A stretch of 10,219 bases of DNA, taken from contig PKUY01000191.1 of NCBI GenBank assembly GCA_003131705.1, forward strand, positions 1 through 10,219, written 5' to 3'. Of the stretch, positions 1-10,219 are shown piece after piece. This stretch comes from Acidobacteriota bacterium (GTDB lineage: Bacteria > Acidobacteriota > Terriglobia > Acidiferrales > UBA7541). The notes beneath the pieces were generated by a model. That model did no database searches and was not told the origin of the DNA. It saw only the letters and a list, made by a program, of their open reading frames with translations. The position numbers and the translations under genes were made by a program. Each line of letters begins with the position of its first letter. Position 1 is the first letter of the stretch.

Positions 1-384
1 GGGAACATCAGCAAACAGTGCCTCCGCTAGTTCCGCCTTGATTGGCTCGAGTTGATCCGCTGTCAGTGCGGTGCGGAGTGCCCGAACCCCGCAGGAGATG
101 TCGAAGCCCACACCTCCTGCCGAGATAACGCCTCCCTCCTTGGGATCAAAAGCGGCGACTCCGCCGATTGGGAATCCGTAGCCCCAATGGGCGTCGGGCA
201 TGGCATAGGCTGCCCTCTGGATTCCCGGCAGTGTTGCGACGTTAGTCAGCTGTTCGCGAACCTTGTCATCCATTCCCTCGATCAAGGGCTTGCTCGCATA
301 TACGATACCCGGAACGCGCATCTGCCCGGTGGGTTCGATCCACCATTCGTAGTCGGATTTTCGGGTCAGCAATTGGGTATCCAT
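1..384 (-). CDS. rtcB: RNA-splicing ligase RtcB, archaeal-type (N-terminal part, cut by window edge)
   Basis: RtcB joins RNA 2',3'-cyclic phosphate or 3'-phosphate ends to 5'-OH ends using GTP and Mn2+, in tRNA splicing or repair of cleaved RNA. Only the first 128 codons are in the window; the gene continues past position 1. The visible part carries the family signature: [14 protein letters not shown] (residues 62-75) and [18 protein letters not shown] (84-101). Asp95 and Cys98 fall at the same numbers as the Mn2+ ligands of Pyrococcus RtcB, and the sequence is of the archaeal/eukaryotic type rather than the E. coli type. The ATG at 384 has GGAG 8 nt upstream. It lies 18 nt downstream of archease, its known activating partner, as last visible gene of a four-gene minus-strand operon. 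Identity is very secure. Confidence 0.95.
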
Positions 385-402
385 GACCACACTCCAATCG
401 AG

Positions 403-819
403 TCATACATCGACAATGCATTGCGCGAGCCAACGCCCCGCACTGTCGCACTCGACCTTGAGATCCGTGACCGTGGCTCCTTTGGCTTCGACGGCTAGCT
501 GATGGCGTTCTGGGTCAATAGCCTCCCCGACGAGCGTTCCAATGAGCGAAAGTCCCGACAGAACGACGCTGTAGCTGCTAAACAGCATGTTCCGCACTGC
601 CATCTCGTAGATGATGGTATTGAGCCAGCTTACCAACAGAAGTTCCAGGTCTGGGGCGTCGCAATGAATCTCGATCCGCTCTGACTGGCGCACACTGGAA
701 ACGTCAGCCACAACAGCGGTGAGCGCAATTGCGGCTTGCTCAAATGCCTCTTCAGCTGAGCGTCCGAAGCCGCGGACTCCGATATCAGCGCCATGCGAAT
801 AGTGTTCCCAACTCGCCAC
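403..819 (-). CDS. Archease (RtcB activator)
   Basis: Archease is a small protein that helps RtcB through multiple turnovers by promoting guanylylation of the ligase and widening its NTP use. The 138-residue product has the family length and shape: the N-terminal motif [11 protein letters not shown] (9-19) with its conserved Asp12, a central hydrophobic stretch [15 protein letters not shown] (61-75), [10 protein letters not shown] (98-107) and a C-terminal VDV ending with a conserved acidic residue at 137. Translation starts at a GTG with GGAG 5 nt upstream. It sits 37 nt after the phosphoribosyltransferase fusion gene and 18 nt before rtcB, so the pair is almost certainly cotranscribed and makes a functional unit. 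Confidence 0.93.
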
Positions 820-856: not shown

Positions 857-2302
857 CTATTTACGGCCCTTCGCCGCTTGTGCCCGAGCGGGGTTCGGAC
901 GTGCGAGGTGGTAGCTGAACCAATTCGCGGCAAGGCGCGATACCTCTTCCAGCGTTCCCGGTTCTTCAAACAGATGGGTCGCACCTTGAACGATAACCAA
1001 TTTCTTCTCGGGACATTCTAGCCTCGCCAGTGCTTCCCGGTTCATACCAATCACAGGCTCGTCGTCCCCTCCGACGATGAGGAGTGTCGGGGCGCGAACA
1101 GCGTCCAGAGCACCTTGCGCGAGATCTGGCCTTCCTCCACGCGATACCACCGCCGAGATCACACCGGGCATCTGTGACGCCGCCACAAGGGCGGCGCCTG
1201 CTCCCGTGCTGGCTCCGAAGTAACCTAGTTGAAAGTCCGAGGTGCCCGGATTACCCATAATCCACCGGGTTGCATCGACCAAGCGCTTCGCAAGAAAAGG
1301 TATGTCGAAACGCAGCTCGCCTGTGTATTGATCGATTGACTCCTCTTTGCGAGTCAGCAGGTCAAATAGCAAAGTGGCGATTCCTCGAGAGTTAAGCACC
1401 TGTGCGACATAGCGGTTTCGCGGACTATGGCGGCTGCTGCCACTTCCATGGGCGAAAAGGACCAGCCCGCTCGCGCCCTTGGGGATAAATAATGTGCCCT
1501 GCAGCGTCGCTCCCTCGACGTCGATGGAAACCTCACTCTTCGTGCCCCCTCCTTCTGACGTTCCACTTGGAATCACGTTCAAGCCGCCTCTTGTCTCCGG
1601 CGGATCGTCTTGTCCAACGATCTGAGCAACCGGCTGCGCCGCTCGATGAAGAAGTCTCATCACTTCCTCATCTGCCACTTGCGAGAAGTCCTCATAGAAC
1701 TGGCCGATGGCATAGAAATCTTCCGGCGTTTGCACACAGATGAGTTCATCTACTTCCTGTCTGAGACGGTTACAAGTTGATAGCGGAGCTACAGGGACGG
1801 CGACCACGAGCCGGACAGGTTTCATCTGCCGAAGGGCGCCAATGGCCGCGCGCATGCTGGATCCCGTAGCAATGCCGTCGTCCACAAGAATGACTGTGTG
1901 TCCCTGAACGATCAGGGGTTGACGACCGCCCCTGTAGACTTTTTCGCGGCGTTCGACTTCCTTTCGAACATTCGCCGTGATCCGTTCCACTTCCGCGTCG
2001 GAGATTCCCACTGCTTCCGTGATTTCCCTATCGAGAATGCGCACCCCGCCGCTGGCGACCGCCCCGAAGGCTAACTCCTCTTGTCCGGGAACGCCCAGCT
2101 TGCGCGACACGAAAACATCCAGAGGGGCGTCCAGTGCTGCTGCGACCTCAAAGGCCACGGGAACACCACCGCGCGGGATTCCAAGTACGACTACATCCTT
2201 GCGGTTTCTGTACGCCCCTAATCGGCTGGCGAGCCTGCGGCCCGCATCCGCTCGATTTGCAAAAATAGTCTCTTCTGTTTCGCGGTCCACTGGCACGTTC
2301 AC
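857..2302 (-). CDS. Phosphoribosyltransferase / dienelactone hydrolase-like fusion protein
   Basis: Two-domain cytosolic protein of 481 residues. Residues about 10-220 form a type I phosphoribosyltransferase, with the PRPP-binding loop VILVDDGIATGSS at 137-149 and the N-terminal GIPRGGVPVA segment (41-50). Residues about 255-465 form an alpha/beta hydrolase of the dienelactone hydrolase type: oxyanion region FAHGSGSS (283-290), nucleophile elbow GASTG with Ser365, acidic residue in GGDDEPV (411-417), His443 in GATHLFEEPG. A linker rich in Gly, Ser and Pro (about 225-255) joins them. Substrates are unknown. Related fusions occur in Acidobacteriota and in actinobacterial stress regulons. The start is uncertain: a GTG at 2302 abuts the Shine-Dalgarno GAGAGGG, whereas the in-frame GTG two codons later (2296) has normal spacing. 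It is 43 nt after the CBS gene and probably in the same operon. Confidence 0.9.
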   Translation of the reverse strand: MNVPVDRETEETIFANRADAGRRLASRLGAYRNRKDVVVLGIPRGGVPVAFEVAAALDAPLDVFVSRKLGVPGQEELAFGAVASGGVRILDREITEAVGISDAEVERITANVRKEVERREKVYRGGRQPLIVQGHTVILVDDGIATGSSMRAAIGALRQMKPVRLVVAVPVAPLSTCNRLRQEVDELICVQTPEDFYAIGQFYEDFSQVADEEVMRLLHRAAQPVAQIVGQDDPPETRGGLNVIPSGTSEGGGTKSEVSIDVEGATLQGTLFIPKGASGLVLFAHGSGSSRHSPRNRYVAQVLNSRGIATLLFDLLTRKEESIDQYTGELRFDIPFLAKRLVDATRWIMGNPGTSDFQLGYFGASTGAGAALVAASQMPGVISAVVSRGGRPDLAQGALDAVRAPTLLIVGGDDEPVIGMNREALARLECPEKKLVIVQGATHLFEEPGTLEEVSRLAANWFSYHLARPNPARAQAAKGRK

Positions 2303-2854: not shown

Positions 2855-2924
2855 TTTCTACGCGTATCGGTTTGGAGAAGATGTGATTGGAATCACAGTC
2901 AGCAGAGCTTGGGCGAATTACTTT
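2855..2924. promoter_or_regulatory. Divergent Crp/Fnr-family promoter pair with shared activator site
   Basis: A perfect TGTGA-N6-TCACA site, TGTGATTGGAATCACA, occupies 2882-2897. On the plus strand a -10-like TACTTT (2919-2924) starts 21 bp after it. On the minus strand a -10-like TAGAAA (2860-2855) starts 21 bp after it. Both put the site centre at -41.5 from predicted starts near 2931 (+) and 2848 (-), the class II activator position. One bound dimer could thus drive the sigma-factor unit and the CBS/RtcB operon together. No good -35 box is seen at either promoter, as expected for activator-dependent ones. The site is read directly; the starts are predicted. Confidence 0.75.
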
Positions 2925-2984
2925 CGAGCCGTGATGGGATTAATTGAAATGAAAGAACTCAGCCATTGTCAAAGGAGCGACAAC

Positions 2985-3578
2985 ATGCGGACCCAGGCGG
3001 ATACAAACGAAGCCTTGCCGCCTCTTGTTTCGGCGAGAAAATCCGAGATTCCGACCGGAAGCAGCTCAGAGGAGTTGGAGAGAACGGCGCTACAGTACTC
3101 ATCTCGCCTCCATCGCATAGCGTTCCGTCAGCTTGGCAATCATGAGGATGCGGAGGATGCTGTTCAAGATGCTCTTGTTTCCGCTTTTTGCCATCTTTCA
3201 CAATTCGAGGGTCGCGCTCAGATGTCGACGTGGCTCACCCGAATTGTCATAAACTCTGCCCGCATGAAAGCGAGGCGACGGCCCAGGCAAGCGGTCTTGT
3301 CGATCGACGAAATGAGCAAACAGCAAGGGGACGCAATCTGGGACCAATTTCCCTATTCTGGACGTAGCCCCGAGGAAGCGTGCCGAGAGCGGGAGCTTCG
3401 AGAGTTGTTGCATGCACAACTGAGGTGGCTCTCCTCCCAGTTTCGCGAGGCGCTGCAGCTATTTTATGTGGATGGTCTTACGACTAGGGAAGCTGCTCAG
3501 ATATTGGGAATCACCCACAGTGCTCTGAAATGCCGGGTTAGTCGCGCGCGCCCAACTCGTCTCCAACTGTCGAAGTAG
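2985..3578 (+). CDS. ECF-type RNA polymerase sigma factor (sigma-70 family)
   Basis: Secondary sigma factor that would direct RNA polymerase to its own promoter set. The 197-residue protein has region 2 at about 31-100, including DAEDAVQDALVSAF (55-68) and FEGRAQMSTWLTRIVINSARMKARR (74-98, quoted here as the region 2.3/2.4 core), and region 4 at about 135-189, with the helix-turn-helix LTTREAAQILGITHSALKCR (165-184). The frame is open from 2883, but the ATG at 2985 has AGGAG 8 nt upstream, and the 34 extra residues would overlap the promoter and activator site, so I place the start at 2985. No anti-sigma gene adjoins it; a Mut7-C gene follows. The last eight residues look atypical for the family and may reflect a 2-nt deletion in a CG run near 3543-3550. 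Confidence 0.9.
   Translation: MRTQADTNEALPPLVSARKSEIPTGSSSEELERTALQYSSRLHRIAFRQLGNHEDAEDAVQDALVSAFCHLSQFEGRAQMSTWLTRIVINSARMKARRRPRQAVLSIDEMSKQQGDAIWDQFPYSGRSPEEACRERELRELLHAQLRWLSSQFREALQLFYVDGLTTREAAQILGITHSALKCRVSRARPTRLQLSK
3363..3377 (+). repeat. 15-bp direct repeat, copy 1 (second copy 3595-3609)
   Basis: The 15 bases CGTAGCCCCGAGGAA occur here inside the sigma-factor gene, encoding RSPEE, and again at 3595-3609, just downstream of its stop codon. In the second copy the repeat supplies GAGGAA, a possible ribosome binding site. In the +1 frame, which reads on from the sigma gene if a 2-nt deletion is restored, the second copy again encodes GRSPEE. It may be a trace of a short duplication, or chance. 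Confidence 0.5.
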
Positions 3579-3629
3579 GTACCTTCAATGCGGGCGTAGC
3601 CCCGAGGAAATGTCCGCGCAGAATCTATA

Positions 3630-4364
3630 ATGAAACAAATCTGCATCCGGTTTTACGCGCAGTTGAATGACTTTCTTCCACCCGAAAGAAAGAAGCAAGC
3701 CATTTCGTCCACCTTCGTTGTCAGTGGGTCTATAAAAGACACCATCGAAGCCATCGGTGTTCCGCACACCGAGGTGGACTTCATCCTTGCAAATGGCGAG
3801 CCGGTGGATTTTGGCTATCGTGCCCAAGATGGCGATCGAGTCAGTGTTTTTCCCAAGTTTCGATCCATCGACATCGGCCCGCTTGCGCATTTGCAGCCCG
3901 TGACGACCGGCGAGAAACGTTTTGTCGCCGATGGGCATTTGGGCCGGCTCGCAGCGTATCTTCGGATGTTAGGGTTCGACACCCTCTATCGAAGCGATTA
4001 TCGGGATGAAGAAGTAGCTCGCCTGTCTTCGAGTGAAAACCGCATTTTGTTGACCAGGGATTGTGGGTTGCTGAAGCGCAATGAAGTCAGGTACGGCTAT
4101 TATGTGCGAGGGACTGAGCCCGCCCAACAGTTGGTTGAAGTGTTACGCGAGTTCGATCTAATCCCAGAAATCATCCCATTTCGCCGATGCATGCACTGCA
4201 ATGCGCTACTCCATGCGACTCGGAAGGAGTCCATCCTGCAGCGTCTTTTGCCGGAGACGGCGAAGTACTTTGAAGAGTTTTACTCTTGTCCCGGCTGCAA
4301 GAAAGTCTACTGGAAGGGCTCTCACTACCGCCGGATGACGCGCTTCATCGAGAGTGTCACGTGA
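3630..4364 (+). CDS. Mut7-C RNase-fold protein with N-terminal ubiquitin-like domain and zinc ribbon
   Basis: A 244-residue protein of the Mut7-C family (formerly DUF82). Residues 1-85 form a ubiquitin-like/beta-grasp domain of the Mut7-C-associated type. Residues about 97-175 form the PIN-like nuclease fold, beginning RFVADGHLGRLAAYLRMLGFDTLY (97-120) with Asp101, and continuing with LLTRDCGLLKR (140-150) with Asp144 as candidate metal ligands. A C-terminal zinc ribbon is formed by Cys187-x2-Cys190 and Cys220-x2-Cys223, followed by the conserved WKGSHYRRM (228-236). The family is predicted to cut RNA; the substrate is not known. It follows the sigma-factor gene by 51 nt on the same strand, is probably cotranscribed, and its stop codon lies inside the stem of the terminator hairpin. 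Confidence 0.9.
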   Translation: MKQICIRFYAQLNDFLPPERKKQAISSTFVVSGSIKDTIEAIGVPHTEVDFILANGEPVDFGYRAQDGDRVSVFPKFRSIDIGPLAHLQPVTTGEKRFVADGHLGRLAAYLRMLGFDTLYRSDYRDEEVARLSSSENRILLTRDCGLLKRNEVRYGYYVRGTEPAQQLVEVLREFDLIPEIIPFRRCMHCNALLHATRKESILQRLLPETAKYFEEFYSCPGCKKVYWKGSHYRRMTRFIESVT

Positions 4365-4405
4365 TTGTCGGAGGCAGCCTCTTCTAGGCTGCCTCCGACA
4401 ATCAC
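4361..4405. terminator. Perfect 20-bp-stem hairpin between convergent genes, probable bidirectional terminator
   Basis: GTGATTGTCGGAGGCAGCCT (4361-4380) pairs perfectly with 4386-4405 around a 5-nt loop, CTTCT. The TGA of the Mut7-C gene (4362-4364) is within the left arm, and the dps stop lies 25 nt to the right. There is no U-tract on either side, so classic Rho-independent release is not assured, but the stem is very stable and ideally placed to end both convergent transcripts or to protect their 3' ends. Confidence 0.8.
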
Positions 4406-4429
4406 CTTTGGCTAGATTCCGTTTGGGGC

Positions 4430-4942
4430 TCAGGCTACCAAACCGTCCTTCTTCTTCAGAATGTCCCGCAAAAACCATTCGTGCTTTTCGTGGATTTGAA
4501 CGACCCGGGAAAGCAAATCGACCGTACCGGGATCGTTGCTTTCGTCGGCGGACTTGGCTGCCTCCCGCATTTCCTTGATAATCACAAGCAGGTTTGCATC
4601 AGCGTCTTCAATCGCCTCGCGCATGGACTGGTTGGCGGACGCCGATTGGACGCTGGCCGCTTCCTGCATTTGCCGCAATTGGACGTTTTGCACATCTTGC
4701 CCGATCATGCGTACGCGTTCCGCGAACTCGTCGGCCGTGCCCAACACGTCCTTGGCGAATTCGTCGAACATCAAATGCAAGTCTCGGAACAAAGGGCCAA
4801 ACGTCTGCCAATGATAATGTTTGTAGTTGGCATAAAGAACGAGCGCGTTTGCAACCTGACGCTGCAAATACTGCACGACCGGATGATCTTCCCGATTTTC
4901 CTGCGATACATCTTTTGCCAGAGCGGTACGCGTGGCAGGCAT
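4430..4942 (-). CDS. dps: Dps-family ferritin-like DNA-protection protein
   Basis: Dps forms a hollow 12-mer that oxidises Fe2+ with H2O2, stores the iron and shields DNA in starvation or oxidative stress. The 170-residue product keeps the inter-subunit ferroxidase ligands with the same spacing as E. coli Dps: His44 (in YHWQTFGP), His56 and Asp60 (in LHLMFDEF), Asp71 and Glu75 (in DEFAERV). The N-terminal tail (1-20) has two Lys/Arg-type basic residues, and the C-terminal tail is KKKDGLVA, so DNA binding by either end is possible but not shown. ATG at 4942 has GGGAGG 7 nt upstream. It is monocistronic, with its own Crp/Fnr-type promoter upstream and a shared hairpin downstream. Confidence 0.95.
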   Translation of the reverse strand: MPATRTALAKDVSQENREDHPVVQYLQRQVANALVLYANYKHYHWQTFGPLFRDLHLMFDEFAKDVLGTADEFAERVRMIGQDVQNVQLRQMQEAASVQSASANQSMREAIEDADANLLVIIKEMREAAKSADESNDPGTVDLLSRVVQIHEKHEWFLRDILKKKDGLVA

Positions 4943-4991
4943 AACCTAACCTCCCTCAGATTTGTGTTCTAAAACTCCCGAATAATGGACC

Positions 4992-5033
4992 AATATAGGT
5001 GACGGGTATATGCAGTCAGTGATCTCGGTCACA
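4992..5033 (-). promoter_or_regulatory. Crp/Fnr-family promoter of dps
   Basis: AGTGATCTCGGTCACA at 5018-5033 matches the TGTGA-N6-TCACA consensus at 9 of 10 positions. On the minus strand a good -10 box, TATATT (4997-4992), begins 20 bp further on, predicting a start near 4985 and putting the site centre near -40.5, the class II activator position. This leaves a leader of about 43 nt with GGGAGG near its end. The site lies downstream of the lipid-fusion gene, so dps need not depend on readthrough. Confidence 0.72.
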
Positions 5034-5087
5034 CCTACTTATCCCTAGTAATAGGCTGCAATCCACACCGATCTTCCGGTTGTTCGC

Positions 5088-7568
5088 TTACAAGGCTTTG
5101 ACTGTCTCTTCAATTCTTTTTGCAATCGTGGCGTAGTCTTCACCCTGCAGCTGTAGTGGCGGACCGAAAACGACTTCGACACGTCCCGGTCGCGGCCAGT
5201 GCGTGTGCCGGTGGAGCACCTTCTCCACACCCAGCAATCGGACGGGCACCAGGGGCACTCCTAGCCGACCAGCGATCAGGCCGACGCCCGGCTGGAAGGA
5301 GTGGATCTCCCCGGCTTCTGTGCGCTCGCCTTCCGGGAAGTACAAGATGGACCAATTGTCGCTAACCAAGTCCCCAAGATACCTGAGGGATTGGCGAGCA
5401 CCGATTTCGGTCTGAGGAAGCGGAAATGCATTGAAGAACAATGCAACCAACCAATAGATGAGGCTTTCGCGAAGCCATTCAAACCGCGTGTGGCGCTCGG
5501 GCCAGAAGTGGGCATCGAAGTACTCTTTCCACATGGCCACAGCCATACGGCGTCGAAAGCGGCGAGGTACAGCGGACAGGATCAGAGGCGTATCTAGATG
5601 GCTCTGGTGGTTTGAGGCAAAGATGACGGGACCTTCAAGCGAAGCCAAATGCTCCAGACCCGCGATGTGAGCATGCGCAAACATCCGAGTGAGTGGCAGC
5701 CACAGTGTATTGAGCGCCACATTTCGAATAAGCCTTGCAGGCCAGCGGCGGCTCCACATTGGAACTTCTTCGGGCTTCGGGGGCGCGGTGATTTCAGCCA
5801 GTGCGGAGACCGTGCGTGCGCCGGTCAATAACGATTCGTCGATGCTGCTATCGAACCGCCGCTCCAAATCAACCATGAGTTCCACGCGATCAAGTGAACT
5901 CAAACCGAGTTCATCTAGCGTGGTTGCCGAGGTTATGGTCCGGTGCGGGGCATATCTCTGCAGAAGGTCGATGATCCGGTCTTGACCGGACGCCGCTACT
6001 GCTGAGGCGCCACTCTCCACCCACGACTGGATCTCACGGTGCTTTATCTTTTGCGTGCCTTCCGTCCGTGGCAGCCGATCGCTCGGCCAAACCGAGACAT
6101 TCCGGATTTTCTGGTGATCTTCGAGTCGCAGATTGGCGCGGCGAATGATTTCGTCCGTATTAGCGCCGCCTTCGACCACCAGAACGGCGTGCACGCGGTC
6201 TTTGCCGACCACGGCGGATTCCCGCACGCCCGCTAGCTGATTGAGTACATTCTCCACATCCTCGGGGAAGACGTTCAGCCCTTCTGGTGTGACAATCATT
6301 TCCTTTTTGCGTCCCCGAATCGTCAGATTACCGGCCTCGTCAAACGTCCCGATGTCACCAGTGCGAAACCATCCGTTTTCGAATGCCAAGGCGGTCTCGT
6401 CCGGAGCGCCGTAGTAGCCAGACGTCACACTTTCACCCCGCACGAGGATTTCACCGTCCGGCGCAATCTTTACCTCCACGCCAGCTACGGGCTTGCCGAC
6501 TGTGCCTTCCGCAATGGCAAACGGGTTGTTGAAGGTAACGACAGGCGCGGTCTCAGTGAGTCCATAGCCTTGAATGACCGCGAATCCAAGCCCAGACCAA
6601 TACTCCTCGACCTCCCTTGTGAGCGGTGCCGCTCCGACGATAAAAGCCCAGAACTTCCATCCAAGCGACCAATGTACGCGACGGTATCGCCACCAGCGGA
6701 AGACCCAATGGGCTGTACCCGAAGGCAGGCCAGCTGTTTCTTGAAATTGTGTCAGAAGGTGTTTCCGCAGCAATTCGAGAATCTTGGGAACGCCGACGAG
6801 TACCGACACGTGCTGGCTACGAATCTGCCGCACGATTTCGTGCGGGCTATAGCCATGCATGAAGACCGCGGTTCCGGGAATAATCGGCACGAGGAACATC
6901 GTGACGACCTGACCAAACATGTGACTCAGCGGAATCAGGCTTAGGAAGCGCAGAGGGAGTACAGGTCGGAACCATTTGCGGTAGGTGCGAATAATCTGCT
7001 CAGGCGACACAATGTCAGCCAGAATGTTACGGTGTGTGATCAACACTCCTTTTGGCTCGCCGGTGGCACCCGACGTAAAGACAATCTCGACAAGATCGTT
7101 TTTGTCGATCGAGACAGACGGAATCTCGCACTGCGTAGTGGGCCATTCAAGGTCACGAAGACGGCAAACAGGCGCTCCCCCTTCCTCGGCGGGCAGATGA
7201 ACTTCCTCTCCGATCAGAATCATTCGGACATCGACGATCTGTTGGACGCGGTGCAGAAAACCGGCTGAAGCTCGGAAGTCGATCGGCACAACGATCACAC
7301 CCGCAAGCACACAGCCCCAAAACGCAGTGATCCACTCAGGGCGGTTTTCGGACCAAATGATGACCTTGTCGCCTTTACGGATGTTCTGTCCAGCCAAGCG
7401 TGCGGCGAAATGACGCGCGGCAAGGCCCACTTGCGCGTACGCATATTTCCATCTCCGATAGCCGTCATCGTATTGAAGGAATTCGACCGGAGAGTCGGAG
7501 AACTCGGCGAATAGATCAACCAGGGTCCGGCGAGGTTCCGTCGCTGTGATTGAGTTGTTCTTCGACAC
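5088..7568 (-). CDS. Acyl-CoA/acyl-ACP synthetase - acyl carrier domain - PlsC acyltransferase fusion
   Basis: An 826-residue, three-module enzyme. Residues about 15-520 are an AMP-forming acyl-activating enzyme: P-loop FTSGATGEPKGV (164-175), YGLTETAP (335-342), GWFRTGD (399-405), and a C-terminal lysine near 507-509. Residues about 528-595 are an acyl carrier domain; Ser558 in LGLSSLDRVEL is the likely phosphopantetheine site (usual GxDS, with Ser in place of Asp). Residues about 635-826 are a PlsC-type acyltransferase with NHQSHLD (653-659, the HX4D motif), YFPEGERT (743-750) and VPLVPVRLLG (771-780). The protein could activate a free fatty acid, hold it on its own carrier and pass it to a lysophospholipid or glycerol phosphate, compactly resembling E. 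coli Aas but in reverse domain order and without a transporter domain. The start is GTG with a weak GGGA 7 nt upstream. It is transcribed alone. Confidence 0.92.
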   Translation of the reverse strand: MSKNNSITATEPRRTLVDLFAEFSDSPVEFLQYDDGYRRWKYAYAQVGLAARHFAARLAGQNIRKGDKVIIWSENRPEWITAFWGCVLAGVIVVPIDFRASAGFLHRVQQIVDVRMILIGEEVHLPAEEGGAPVCRLRDLEWPTTQCEIPSVSIDKNDLVEIVFTSGATGEPKGVLITHRNILADIVSPEQIIRTYRKWFRPVLPLRFLSLIPLSHMFGQVVTMFLVPIIPGTAVFMHGYSPHEIVRQIRSQHVSVLVGVPKILELLRKHLLTQFQETAGLPSGTAHWVFRWWRYRRVHWSLGWKFWAFIVGAAPLTREVEEYWSGLGFAVIQGYGLTETAPVVTFNNPFAIAEGTVGKPVAGVEVKIAPDGEILVRGESVTSGYYGAPDETALAFENGWFRTGDIGTFDEAGNLTIRGRKKEMIVTPEGLNVFPEDVENVLNQLAGVRESAVVGKDRVHAVLVVEGGANTDEIIRRANLRLEDHQKIRNVSVWPSDRLPRTEGTQKIKHREIQSWVESGASAVAASGQDRIIDLLQRYAPHRTITSATTLDELGLSSLDRVELMVDLERRFDSSIDESLLTGARTVSALAEITAPPKPEEVPMWSRRWPARLIRNVALNTLWLPLTRMFAHAHIAGLEHLASLEGPVIFASNHQSHLDTPLILSAVPRRFRRRMAVAMWKEYFDAHFWPERHTRFEWLRESLIYWLVALFFNAFPLPQTEIGARQSLRYLGDLVSDNWSILYFPEGERTEAGEIHSFQPGVGLIAGRLGVPLVPVRLLGVEKVLHRHTHWPRPGRVEVVFGPPLQLQGEDYATIAKRIEETVKAL

Positions 7569-7590
7569 GGGGCTATCCCAACACCAACCG

Positions 7591-7633
7591 ACAGGAAGCT
7601 TACAACGCTCGCATGTTTGCCATGTCTTCCTGT
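7591..7633 (-). repeat. Inverted repeat in the leader of the lipid-fusion gene
   Basis: ACAGGAAG (7591-7598) and CTTCCTGT (7626-7633) form an 8-bp stem around a 27-nt loop, ending 22 nt before the GTG start on the minus strand. The stop codon of a 34-codon leader frame (7600-7602) falls in the loop beside the stem. It may be a regulatory leader hairpin; there is no further support. Confidence 0.4.
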
Positions 7634-7745
7634 TCGGGACACACGACGATCAGTCTTTCGATACAATCGTCACCGGACACGATAATTTCCTCGGTTGTGG
7701 TCATAGCACCGTATCGTCATGGCTGAAGGTTGATTCCATACTTTC

Positions 7746-7788
7746 TTTTTATCTCGGCTCTCCGCCTACTGCTGTGACTGCAATCACA
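7746..7788 (-). promoter_or_regulatory. Crp/Fnr-family promoter of the lipid-fusion gene
   Basis: A perfect consensus site, TGTGACTGCAATCACA, lies at 7773-7788. On the minus strand a -10-like TAAAAA (7751-7746) begins exactly 21 bp after it, predicting a start near 7739 with the site centre at -41.5. The hexamer itself is only a moderate match (4 of 6), and the resulting leader is long. The site is certain as a sequence; its use is inferred from the spacing shared with the other promoters here. Confidence 0.68.
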
Positions 7789-7948
7789 GGATCGATGACA
7801 AAAGCGATGCCCCAGGAAGAAGCGAATCAACGGAGCAAGGCTTCGATCGCGGCCAGCATGCGGCACTGGTCTCCATTTCAGTAACTATCAAGAACATGGT
7901 ACGGGAGTACTCTGGTCACTACAATGAACGGTCAGCCACTGTAGTTGC

Positions 7949-8110
7949 ATGAAGAGAACAGTCGTGTGGCTTACCGATCAGCAGACCAAGGAATTGGGAA
8001 GGATGTCGAAGCGTTCCTTGGCTCCCATCTCAGCCTTGGTGCGAGAGGCCGTGAAGGACTTCCTGCGACGGATGCGGGACCGACCGGGCCGCAAAGCTGC
8101 CAAGCGCTAA
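7949..8110 (+). CDS. Small ribbon-helix-helix (CopG/Arc-type) protein
   Basis: A 53-residue basic protein with the layout of a ribbon-helix-helix DNA-binding protein: a short N-terminal strand MKRTVVWL (1-8) followed by TDQQTKELGRMSKRS (helix 1, about 9-22), a turn LAPIS (24-28), and helix 2 ALVREAVKDFLRRMR (29-43), with a lysine/arginine-rich tail. Such proteins bind DNA as dimers and are often antitoxins or autoregulators. The start is fixed by an in-frame stop at 7925-7927, with ATG 7949 the only start after it, although no clear ribosome binding site precedes it. No recognisable toxin gene adjoins. The match of strand and helix pattern is good; the partner and operator are unknown. Confidence 0.7.
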   Translation: MKRTVVWLTDQQTKELGRMSKRSLAPISALVREAVKDFLRRMRDRPGRKAAKR

Positions 8111-8291
8111 CCCCACCCAAGCCAAAATAGCGTCGGGGTTTCAGAAACTGTCGAGGTCCGTTCACGGGAGCTCCTGGTGCTGGAATCTCGCGATGCTCTT
8201 GTGCAAGCGAGGCGCCCTAGGAATTCTGCCATCACAGTGCTTGCAATCCATCAGAACCGAACCCTAAACGCACTGTCAAAAATAGCCGTAG

Positions 8292-8305
8292 TGCACTATA
8301 GTGCA
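8292..8305. repeat. 14-bp perfect palindrome
   Basis: TGCACTATAGTGCA reads the same on both strands and contains two inward-facing TGCACTA half-sites. It stands in non-coding DNA 181 bp after the ribbon-helix-helix gene and 192 bp before the next activator site. Its form fits an operator for a dimeric regulator, but nothing in the sequence ties it to a particular protein. Confidence 0.5.
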
Positions 8306-8497
8306 TGTCTGGTATCTACTACAAATGGTTACGACAATCGAAGCCACCCGGGCTATGCTAGTTCTCGATTCCACTCGCCCGGCTTGTTCCATGAGATCCC
8401 GATTGTACCCTTGAACTCACCGCCGCGCGCAGGTGAAGAGGTCATTGCCGCCGCACTCCCGTGAGTTCTCGATCAGGGAACGGCTGTCACTTGAAGA

Positions 8498-8540
8498 TGT
8501 GACCTGTGTCACCGCCGCCCTTCACCCAGCCCAATATCTT
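8498..8540 (+). promoter_or_regulatory. Crp/Fnr-family promoter of the 2-oxoacid oxidoreductase gene
   Basis: TGTGACCTGTGTCACC at 8498-8513 matches the consensus at 9 of 10 positions. A -10-like TATCTT (8535-8540) starts 21 bp after the site, predicting a start near 8547 with the site centre at -41.5. The leader would be about 68 nt, with a GAGGG ribosome binding site before the ATG at 8615. No -10 box is found at the matching distance on the opposite strand. Confidence 0.72.
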
Positions 8541-8614
8541 TAAGCCGACAGCCTGGAAGGCAACCCGAACTGGCCACCAAATCGCGAGGAATTGACGAAC
8601 ATGATGAGGGCGTG

Positions 8615-10219
8615 ATGAAGCAGACCTTTGCCATCGGCATCGGAGGTGCAGCCGGACAGGGTGTCGCCACCCCGGGCGACATTTTCGCAAGGATCTTCAG
8701 CCGGCGCGGCCTCCACCTCAACGCCTATAATGCCTATCAGTCAATCATTCGCGGCGGCCACACATTTCTCACCATTCGCGCGGGCCCGGAAAAGGTTACC
8801 AACATGGGTGACCGCATCGACCTGCTCATTCCCCTCAACCAGGACAGCATGGATCGCCACCTGAACTTCCTCACTGCAGGCGCCTCGTGTATCTACAATG
8901 CCGACACGATTAAGCCCGGCTCTGCCGCTGACGGCGTGCAGCTCTGCCCACTTCCGGTTTCAGAGTTGGCTGACATCACGCGCAACAAGGTTGCCCAGAA
9001 CACGCTCGCTCTCGGCGCCGGCCTCAACATGATGGGTATCGACTTCCAGGCGCTGGGAAAAGTCCTCATAGAGCAGTTCGGGAAGAAGGGCGAGGCCGTG
9101 GTCGCCGAAAACGTCGCAGTTGCGCGGGCCGGCTATGATTACGCCACCTCTAACTTCAGGCCATTTCCGAGTTCACTTCCCATGACTGACAATCGCTTCG
9201 CGGTTCTGAGCGGCAACGTTGCGTTGGCCATGGGAGGCGCAGCAGCGGGCGTGAAATTCTACTGTGCTTATCCAATGAGCCCTTCGACGGGCGTTCTGCA
9301 CTGGATGGCGGCCCACGCACGCAAGGCTGGCATCATGGTCCGGCAGGTGGAGGACGAAATCGGCGTGATTAACATGGCCATCGGTGCGGCTCACTCAGGC
9401 GTCCGCGCTATGTGCGCTACCTCCGGCGGCGGCTTCGCCCTGATGAGCGAGGGCCTCGGCATGTCCGCCATGATCGAAACCCCCGTCGTAGTCATCAACT
9501 GTCAGCGCGCTGGCCCGTCCACCGGCGTTCCCACCAAGACCGAGCAGGGCGATCTCTGGCAGATGCTCGGCGCTGCATTTGGCGATTATCCCCGGATAAT
9601 CGCAGCTCCGTTGGACATCGGCGATTGCTTCAAGCTCATCCCCGAGATATTCAACGTCGCCGACCGCTTCCAGTGCCCAGGACTCGTGCTTTGCGATCTC
9701 CTCTTGTCGGAAGGTCGCCTCAGCGTCCATCCAAACGACCTGGATTTCAGCCCGCCCATCGATCGCGGCGAGCTCATCACCACCGCCAATGGTGCCCCCT
9801 CTGCGGCTCCCCCAAACGGCGGCTACAAACGCTACAAAATCACCGACAGCGGCCTTTCACCTCGCGCCGTTCCCGGCGTGCCCGGTTACATTCACACGGT
9901 GGCCACCGATGAACACCAGGAAGACGGCGTAATCATCAGCGATGAGTTCACCAATTCCATCAAGCGCCGCGCCATGATGGAGAAGCGCATGCGCAAGGTC
10001 GCAGGCATTGAAGCCGCCATTCCCCCACCCGCGCTTTCAGGTCCGACCAACGCTGATGTCACCTTGATCGGCTGGGGTTCAACCAAAGGGGTAATCGAGG
10101 AAGCTTGTGAACTCCTCAACGAACAAGGAATCTCTGCCAATCAGCTCCAGATCCGCTGGCTAGTGCCACTGCATGGCGAAGCCATTCTCGAAATCCTGCG
10201 AGGCTCGCGCCACACTATC
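8615..10219 (+). CDS. korA: 2-oxoacid:acceptor (ferredoxin) oxidoreductase, alpha subunit with fused gamma domain (C-terminus cut by window edge)
   Basis: Part of the enzyme that oxidatively decarboxylates a 2-oxoacid such as 2-oxoglutarate to acyl-CoA, reducing ferredoxin. The 535 visible codons are open to the window end. Residues 1 to about 185 are the gamma domain (GIGGAAGQGVATPGD, 8-22; YQSIIRGGHTFLTIRAG, near 46-62). From about residue 193 comes the PFOR/KorA alpha domain, with YPMSPSTG, EDEIGVINMAIGAAHSGVRA, TSGGGFALMSEG and QRAGPSTGVPT motifs. The beta subunit, carrying thiamine diphosphate and usually the iron-sulfur cluster, would be expected just beyond 10219. ATG 8615 has AGGG 4 nt upstream; a GTG directly before it is also possible. 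The substrate is not determined by what is visible, so korA is the family name rather than a proven substrate. Confidence 0.9.
   Translation, partial: MKQTFAIGIGGAAGQGVATPGDIFARIFSRRGLHLNAYNAYQSIIRGGHTFLTIRAGPEKVTNMGDRIDLLIPLNQDSMDRHLNFLTAGASCIYNADTIKPGSAADGVQLCPLPVSELADITRNKVAQNTLALGAGLNMMGIDFQALGKVLIEQFGKKGEAVVAENVAVARAGYDYATSNFRPFPSSLPMTDNRFAVLSGNVALAMGGAAAGVKFYCAYPMSPSTGVLHWMAAHARKAGIMVRQVEDEIGVINMAIGAAHSGVRAMCATSGGGFALMSEGLGMSAMIETPVVVINCQRAGPSTGVPTKTEQGDLWQMLGAAFGDYPRIIAAPLDIGDCFKLIPEIFNVADRFQCPGLVLCDLLLSEGRLSVHPNDLDFSPPIDRGELITTANGAPSAAPPNGGYKRYKITDSGLSPRAVPGVPGYIHTVATDEHQEDGVIISDEFTNSIKRRAMMEKRMRKVAGIEAAIPPPALSGPTNADVTLIGWGSTKGVIEEACELLNEQGISANQLQIRWLVPLHGEAILEILRGSRHTI

Follow-up and report, generated by a model that had tools for sequence, protein, structure and literature searches.

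The described systems closest to the one analysed here are CRP and FNR of Escherichia coli, HcpR in its Desulfovibrio form and, for the kinds of genes controlled, the DosR regulon of mycobacteria. Our subject is a 10,219-nucleotide stretch of DNA from an Acidobacteriota bacterium (contig PKUY01000191.1 of assembly GCA_003131705.1; hereafter the window), in which four palindromes between genes are quite probably the operators of a Crp/Fnr-superfamily activator acting from the class II position. At class II promoters of E. coli CRP, the site lies near −41.5. The mycobacterial DosR regulon includes similar kinds of genes (Usp, CBS, phosphoribosyltransferase-hydrolase and nitroreductase), and DosR is a response regulator with a different site; its regulon resembles the present one in gene kinds only. 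Acidobacteriota are common soil bacteria, and no description of a Crp/Fnr regulon of this kind in them was found among the matches listed in the literature searched. In Acidobacterium capsulatum, transcript levels of usp genes and rbr are higher at low oxygen, as the available part of PMC11636273 reports, and the terms Fnr and Crp are absent from its text.

The system shares with E. coli CRP the site TGTGA-N6-TCACA, a recognition helix (RE[T/S]VTR, as against RETVGR in CRP) and a site edge 20–22 bp from the −10-like hexamer, as expected of class II promoters. It differs from CRP in its targets and in its candidate regulators, which possess N-terminal cysteines and, in the proteins encoded on contigs C101, C22 and C346, do not keep Glu72, Arg82 and Ser83. 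The C101 and C346 proteins resemble E. coli FNR and FnrL-type sensors in having an N-terminal CxxC with a third and a central cysteine nearby, and the targets are of a low-oxygen type. Unlike in FNR, only two of the four cluster cysteines are aligned exactly and two are shifted by three residues, the helix reads RETVTR instead of VETISR, and the half-site is GTGA instead of TTGAT. HcpR also belongs to the Crp/Fnr family, has Arg180 and recognizes TTGTGA-N6-TCACAA, according to the available part of PMC545781. However, HcpR controls hcp, frdX and sulfate-reduction genes, whereas no Hcp occurred among the 20 target proteins scanned here, in a survey that included no search aimed at hcp. The mechanism is of a textbook kind, but neither this network nor the protein that probably governs it appears to have been described. 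The motif, the promoter geometry, the candidate regulators and the target list make an acidobacterial low-oxygen or stress response directly testable.

Operator motif and promoter geometry

The four palindromes (Table 1) lie exactly where an earlier note on this DNA had placed them, and none overlaps any of the nine genes of the window. No further match of at least 9/10 to TGTGA-N6-TCACA exists anywhere else in the window. A first-order Markov model predicts 0.28 such matches for the window, and four were reached in none of 300 runs.

The motif was then sought in the whole assembly, which comprises 3.94 Mb in 441 contigs and has a completeness of 81% with 3% contamination. The plain pattern with at most one mismatch occurs 86 times and its reversed control 30 times, an approximately threefold excess. 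As a motif it was rejected as too unspecific; 17 of the 26 strong sites that lack a flanking Y..R pair are intragenic. A comparison of intragenic and extragenic sites indicated that the likely real sites have C or T after GTGA and G or A before TCAC, and the refined core GTGAY-N4-RTCAC has 51 occurrences, compared with 3 of its reversed counterpart. The TGTGA-type specificity proposed earlier is retained, but in this genome the motif becomes specific only with Y and R. The motif is not equally frequent in genes: 26 of the 28 refined-core sites with a 9–10/10 match are intergenic, compared with 7/23 of those with an 8/10 match and 9/26 of the other strong sites, which have end mismatches only and no Y..R. 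The contrast between 26/28 and 9/26 (Fisher test, 8.6e-6) is post hoc because Y..R was picked from those very sites; the relatives are independent of that choice, and the refined core exceeds its reversed control in all 61 genomes (18 vs 12 in the least clear case). The intergenic calls for the 51 sites come from a simple codon-usage gene-calling script, which is rough and misses the sigma gene of the window. The window holds four refined-motif sites where 0.13 are expected (Poisson p ~1e-5; 0.003 after correction for 386 windows), and similar clusters are present on contigs C72 (4 sites) and C435 (3 sites). The palindromic GTGA/TCAC operator is enriched upstream of genes, as expected of a regulon of the Crp/Fnr superfamily, and the genome-wide test supports the Crp/Fnr-type regulon that the earlier note had claimed. 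The window would be one dense cluster within a dispersed regulon of about 26–30 sites.

The proposed −10-like hexamers of all five promoters begin exactly 21 bp from the site edge (20 bp for dps), as had been claimed from the sequence. For a 16-bp site whose edge lies 21 bp before the hexamer, we take the centre to be near −41.5, the class II position. The count of five promoters is generous, since the sigma-side hexamer matches at 3/6 positions and stands outside the pooled test. Taken one by one, the hexamers of the window are weak, and the geometry convinces only when promoters outside the window are pooled. Among 31 oriented promoters in the rest of the genome, the positions 20–22 bp from the site carry TA in 12 (background mean, 2.9), TANNNT in 8 (0.62) and a hexamer with at least 4/6 matches to TATAAT in 11 (1.8). 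TA begins at 20, 21 and 22 bp in 3, 5 and 5 of them; the spacing is accordingly 20–22 bp and not strictly 21 bp. In the controls, hexamers of at least 4/6 were found on 2/31 intergenic site sides without a near outward gene and in 4/35 cases around intragenic sites (TA in 3/35). In relatives, 16 of 46 pooled promoters, which are partly related to one another, have a hexamer of at least 4/6 (background mean, 2.28), and 11 of the 16 are at exactly 21 bp. These pooled hexamers argue for the predicted class II geometry, in which a regulator dimer on GTGAY-N4-RTCAC would contact RNA polymerase and presumably act as an activator.

Candidate regulators

The regulator gene was expected to lie outside the window, and this is supported by candidates on contigs C101, C22, C346 and C234. 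The genome has 13 matches to PF13545, 12 of them over the cut-off. The recognition helix is RESVTR in the C101 protein, RETVTR in the C22 and C346 proteins and RELVSR in the C234 protein, at the alignment position of the CRP and FNR helices given above; seven other PF13545 proteins (all were read but L027 and L028) have TTRSRV in place of the RE..[TS]R helix. The RETVGR helix of E. coli CRP reads TGTGA, and its Arg180, Glu181 and Arg185 contact G and G:C pairs of this half-site, as described in the available part of PMC11253593. Arg180 is linked to CRP-like as against FNR-like sites in the accessible portion of PMC545781. The genome thus encodes regulators with a cNMP-type sensor and a Crp helix-turn-helix domain whose helix fits the site. 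None of the four candidates exceeds the cut-off of any NCBIfam model.

Homologues were surveyed at 30 loci among 57 matches to the C346 protein. The helix RE-T-[VI]-[TS]-R is present at all 30, and 28 have three N-terminal cysteines, spaced C-X2-C-X8-C in 27 cases and with X7 in the remaining one. In the C346 and C101 proteins, the first two of these align with residues that we take to be FNR Cys20 and Cys23; the third lies three residues past what would be Cys29, and the central cysteine three before Cys122. The C22 protein as called lacks the N-terminal cysteines. An Fe-S or thiol switch in the candidate regulators is plausible from these alignments. The earlier judgement of a Crp-like rather than an Fnr specificity holds for the TGTGA-type site and the CRP-type helix; it does not cover the FNR-like N-terminal cysteines, nor the three of four proteins without the cAMP residues of CRP.

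A match to the C346 protein (E ≤ 1e-25) is present in 34 of the 61 genomes, with up to four homologues per genome. The motif excess per Mb is higher in genomes with the regulator than in those without, by statistics that ignore shared ancestry: medians are 7.5 vs 3.7 (34 vs 27 genomes, p 5e-6) overall and 11.2 vs 3.7 (11 vs 8 genomes, p 2.5e-4) in the genus without the own genome. The difference holds in the genus at a completeness of at least 79% (10 vs 5 genomes, p 0.004), in other genera of the family (10 vs 7, p 0.012) and in the order and class (12 vs 12, p 0.044). At 14 of the 30 loci the regulator gene has a site nearby, either up to 400 bp upstream (9 loci) or up to 250 bp downstream (8 loci; 3 have both), which suggests autoregulation. 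Sites also adjoin the C22 and C234 regulator genes of this genome. Directly downstream of the C22 gene, two sites overlap back to back (L031 1498–1527; C22:4497–4526). An 8/10 site (L129 1500–1515) separates the C234 Crp/Fnr-type regulator gene from a RIC-type ScdA_N/hemerythrin gene.

The regulator would be at least one of the proteins with the RE[T/S]VTR helix (C101, C22 and C346) and possibly the RELVSR protein of C234. That two or more of these paralogues share the sites in overlapping regulons, with no single regulon, has close to an even chance: four proteins with the RE..[TS]R helix coexist in one genome, two of their genes have sites beside them, and relatives have several homologues each, but one common motif is used throughout. 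A more tentative proposal, to which we give somewhat less than even odds, extends the reading of a class II Crp/Fnr regulon. The proteins may represent an undescribed global regulator family of Acidobacteriota that combines a CRP-type RETVTR domain with an FNR-like N-terminal module, in which three cysteines are near-invariant (mostly C-X2-C-X8-C) and the fourth ligand is not fixed, and governs a low-oxygen or dormancy regulon like that of DosR. If so, a regulator of a novel family would fill the role of DosR in Acidobacteriota and explain why usp and rbr transcripts rise at low oxygen in A. capsulatum, where no such regulator is named.

Conservation of the sites in relatives

Upstream of the CBS gene, a site is found at 71–95 bp in all four orthologues of 64–74% identity (74 bp in the window). 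It matches at 9/10 with Y..R in L234 and L235 and at 8/10 in L236, and L239 has two sites, one of 9/10 without Y..R and, at 171 bp, one of 10/10. A TA-hexamer begins at 21 bp in three of these four promoters (TATAAA, TAGAAG and TATGCA). In two CBS homologues of 46% identity, an upstream site was not found. The fusion gene is preceded by a site 81–118 bp before the estimated start in four of five orthologues (L069–L072; 204 bp in the window), with matches of 10/10 (Y..C) in L069 and L070, 8/10 in L071 and 9/10 in L072. TAAAAG and TAAAAA stand exactly 21 bp from the site in L069 and L070, as in the fusion promoter of the window. The fusion gene of L073 (53% identity) has no preceding site, and a paralogue of 37–40% identity has none in 26 loci. 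Conservation at these two of the four window loci is established computationally, as are the sites, their intergenic enrichment and the −10 spacing.

Further genes are also associated with sites. At locus L114 of genome G001, a nitroreductase gene that is the first of a same-strand series including archease and rtcB has two sites before it, and a phosphoribosyltransferase gene has another; a nitroreductase gene on C435 of the present genome has sites as well. For PPDK-type genes, sites occur both in this genome (L003) and at the relative locus L072. The Mut7-C genes of L069, L116 and L117 have no directly preceding site, and the site in L070 precedes the gene upstream of Mut7-C.

Several observations weigh against the regulon as we read it. 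The dps and korA sites, claimed as members, recur at none of the homologous loci surveyed. For dps, 57 of the 399 genomes searched across the class, among them the own one, contain a match at 1e-15, and none of the 29 non-own loci checked among these has a site; five are 52–79% identical, all from another family. For korA, the count is 0/15 loci having upstream DNA (16 loci in all, L092 being without its upstream part). Even the conserved sites fall partly outside the refined motif (L069, L070 and L239 lack Y..R; L071 and L236 match at 8/10), and TA alone at 20–22 bp also occurs on 7/31 sides without a near outward gene. To the neglect of shared ancestry in the regulator–motif comparison is added a rank correlation that is not significant within the order and class (rho 0.31, p 0.14). 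The loci of the homologues closest to the C346 protein (L203–L209, L211 and L213) contain no site, the central cysteine is conserved in only 13/30 homologues, and three or four paralogues would fit as the regulator.

It is rather unlikely, though worth weighing, that only the CBS and fusion sites function and that those of dps, korA and the sigma side are chance matches or newly gained. Conservation limited to these two sites would follow, the sigma-side hexamer is poor, and the DNA similarity of korA to its four closest relatives begins at 8598–8606, past site 4. However, four sites are far above the expectation for 10.2 kb, and the dps and korA hexamers match at 4/6 or more at 20–21 bp.

Targets, signal and genes of the window

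Outside the window, 26 first genes lie behind strong or 8/10 sites, which were pooled; at divergent sites both genes are counted though only one may be the target. Of the 20 proteins scanned, 19 have a Pfam match. The stress-type members are Hsp20, rubrerythrin, two Usp and a nitroreductase. Carbon and energy genes are represented by a PPDK-type enzyme, isocitrate lyase, cytochrome oxidase subunit II with cytochrome c, an acyl-CoA ligase, an acyl-CoA dehydrogenase and a 3-hydroxyacyl-CoA dehydrogenase. Thiolase, OsmC, LigA, URO-D, B12-binding, flavoprotein and HAD phosphatase matches complete the set, and the ScdA/hemerythrin protein stands behind the 8/10 site beside the C234 regulator. This composition is that of a mixed stress and energy regulon. 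The single stress or low-oxygen response of the earlier note accounts for Usp, Hsp20 and rubrerythrin but is too narrow for isocitrate lyase, thiolase, the acyl-CoA enzymes, LigA and the oxidase subunit. Under the regulon favoured here, the stress targets would be Usp, Hsp20, rubrerythrin, CBS, nitroreductase and probably archease/RtcB, and the carbon and energy targets the PPDK-type enzyme, isocitrate lyase, acyl-CoA enzymes and the oxidase subunit.

The regulon is probably redox- or oxygen-sensing, and the N-terminal cysteines of the candidate regulators, which the C22 protein lacks, may sense oxygen, nitric oxide or redox state. The classic arrangement, in which cyclic AMP (cAMP) is sensed, the genes follow the carbon state and the stress genes are secondary, is quite improbable. 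The half-sites and the RETVTR helix are similar to those of E. coli CRP, isocitrate lyase, thiolase and acyl-CoA enzymes are among the targets, and the best NCBIfam match of the C346 protein is the CRP model, at 82 bits far below the cut-off of 266. Glu72, Arg82 and Ser83 are the cAMP contacts of CRP according to the available part of PMC11253593. In an alignment with E. coli CRP, all three are replaced in the C101, C22 and C346 proteins, and the C234 protein retains Glu only; cAMP is therefore an unlikely signal, and the three N-terminal cysteines of 28/30 homologues are absent from CRP. Chance matches can practically be set aside: six window matches at two mismatches are not unusual (38/200 shuffles), but the genome-wide excess, the Markov model, the 61 genomes, the −10 spacing and the density in the window contradict this explanation.

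Table 1. Sites, −10-like hexamers and genes of the window.
Feature	Position	Strand	Match or domain	Context
Site 1, TGTGATTGGAATCACA	2882..2897	.	10/10 to TGTGA-N6-TCACA	Intergenic, CBS gene / sigma gene
Site 2, AGTGATCTCGGTCACA	5018..5033	.	9/10 to TGTGA-N6-TCACA	dps upstream region
Site 3, TGTGACTGCAATCACA	7773..7788	.	10/10 to TGTGA-N6-TCACA	Upstream of ligase-ACP-acyltransferase fusion gene
Site 4, TGTGACCTGTGTCACC	8498..8513	.	9/10 to TGTGA-N6-TCACA	Upstream of 2-oxoacid oxidoreductase alpha gene
Hexamer TAGAAA	2855..2860	-	4/6 to TATAAT	21 bp from site 1, CBS side
Hexamer TACTTT	2919..2924	+	3/6 to TATAAT, weak	21 bp from site 1, sigma-gene side
Hexamer TATATT	4992..4997	-	5/6 to TATAAT	20 bp from site 2, dps side
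Hexamer TAAAAA	7746..7751	-	4/6 to TATAAT	21 bp from site 3, fusion-gene side
Hexamer TATCTT	8535..8540	+	4/6 to TATAAT	21 bp from site 4, korA side
RtcB	1..390	-	PF01139	Truncated by window end
Archease	403..819	-	PF01951	
Phosphoribosyltransferase-hydrolase fusion	857..2302	-	PF00156, PF01738	
Two-CBS-domain protein, 153 aa	2346..2807	-	PF00571, two stretches	
ECF-type sigma factor	2985..3578	+	PF04542, PF08281; TIGR02937 above cut-off	
Ub-Mut7-C/Mut7-C protein	3630..4364	+	PF14451, PF01927	
Dps-like ferritin-family protein	4430..4942	-	PF00210; Dps models are the top NCBIfam hits, each scoring below cut-off	
AMP-ligase / carrier / acyltransferase fusion, 826 aa	5088..7568	-	PF00501, PF00550, PF01553	
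2-oxoacid:acceptor oxidoreductase alpha subunit (KorA)	8612..10219	+	PF01558, PF01855; TIGR03710 above cut-off	Continues beyond window

The phosphoribosyltransferase-hydrolase gene likely shares an operon with the CBS gene, from which a 43-bp gap separates it. In a scan of one contig collection, five of six loci homologous to that of the fusion gene came from Acidobacteria/Terriglobia metagenome-assembled genomes and one from a distant Oceanibacterium. An Rfam scan of the window gave no match. The KorA protein is 88% identical to the products of genes in another genus, and 19 genomes of the same genus gave no match at 1e-100; the region 8598–10219, where the similarity to the four closest relatives starts on the gene-proximal side of site 4, resembles recently transferred DNA or part of a misbinned contig. 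The closest match of dps (79%) is in another family of the class, whereas 60 nearer relatives gave none at 1e-20, and the best relatives of the fusion and CBS genes (72–74%) belong to a third genus. With the closest relatives of its parts spread over different taxa in this way, the contig may be a mosaic or may have been assigned to the wrong bin. As 47 of the 51 sites lie elsewhere, the result for the whole genome is independent of this contig.

The interval between the fusion gene and korA contains a 53-residue open reading frame (7949–8110, + strand) whose product matches the ribbon-helix-helix model PF12651 at 22.9 bits (cut-off, 21.6). It also contains a perfect 14-bp palindrome, TGCACTATAGTGCA (8292–8305), which is unlike the Crp/Fnr-type sites and is perhaps, as a guess, an operator bound by a different regulator, for instance the ribbon-helix-helix protein encoded close by.

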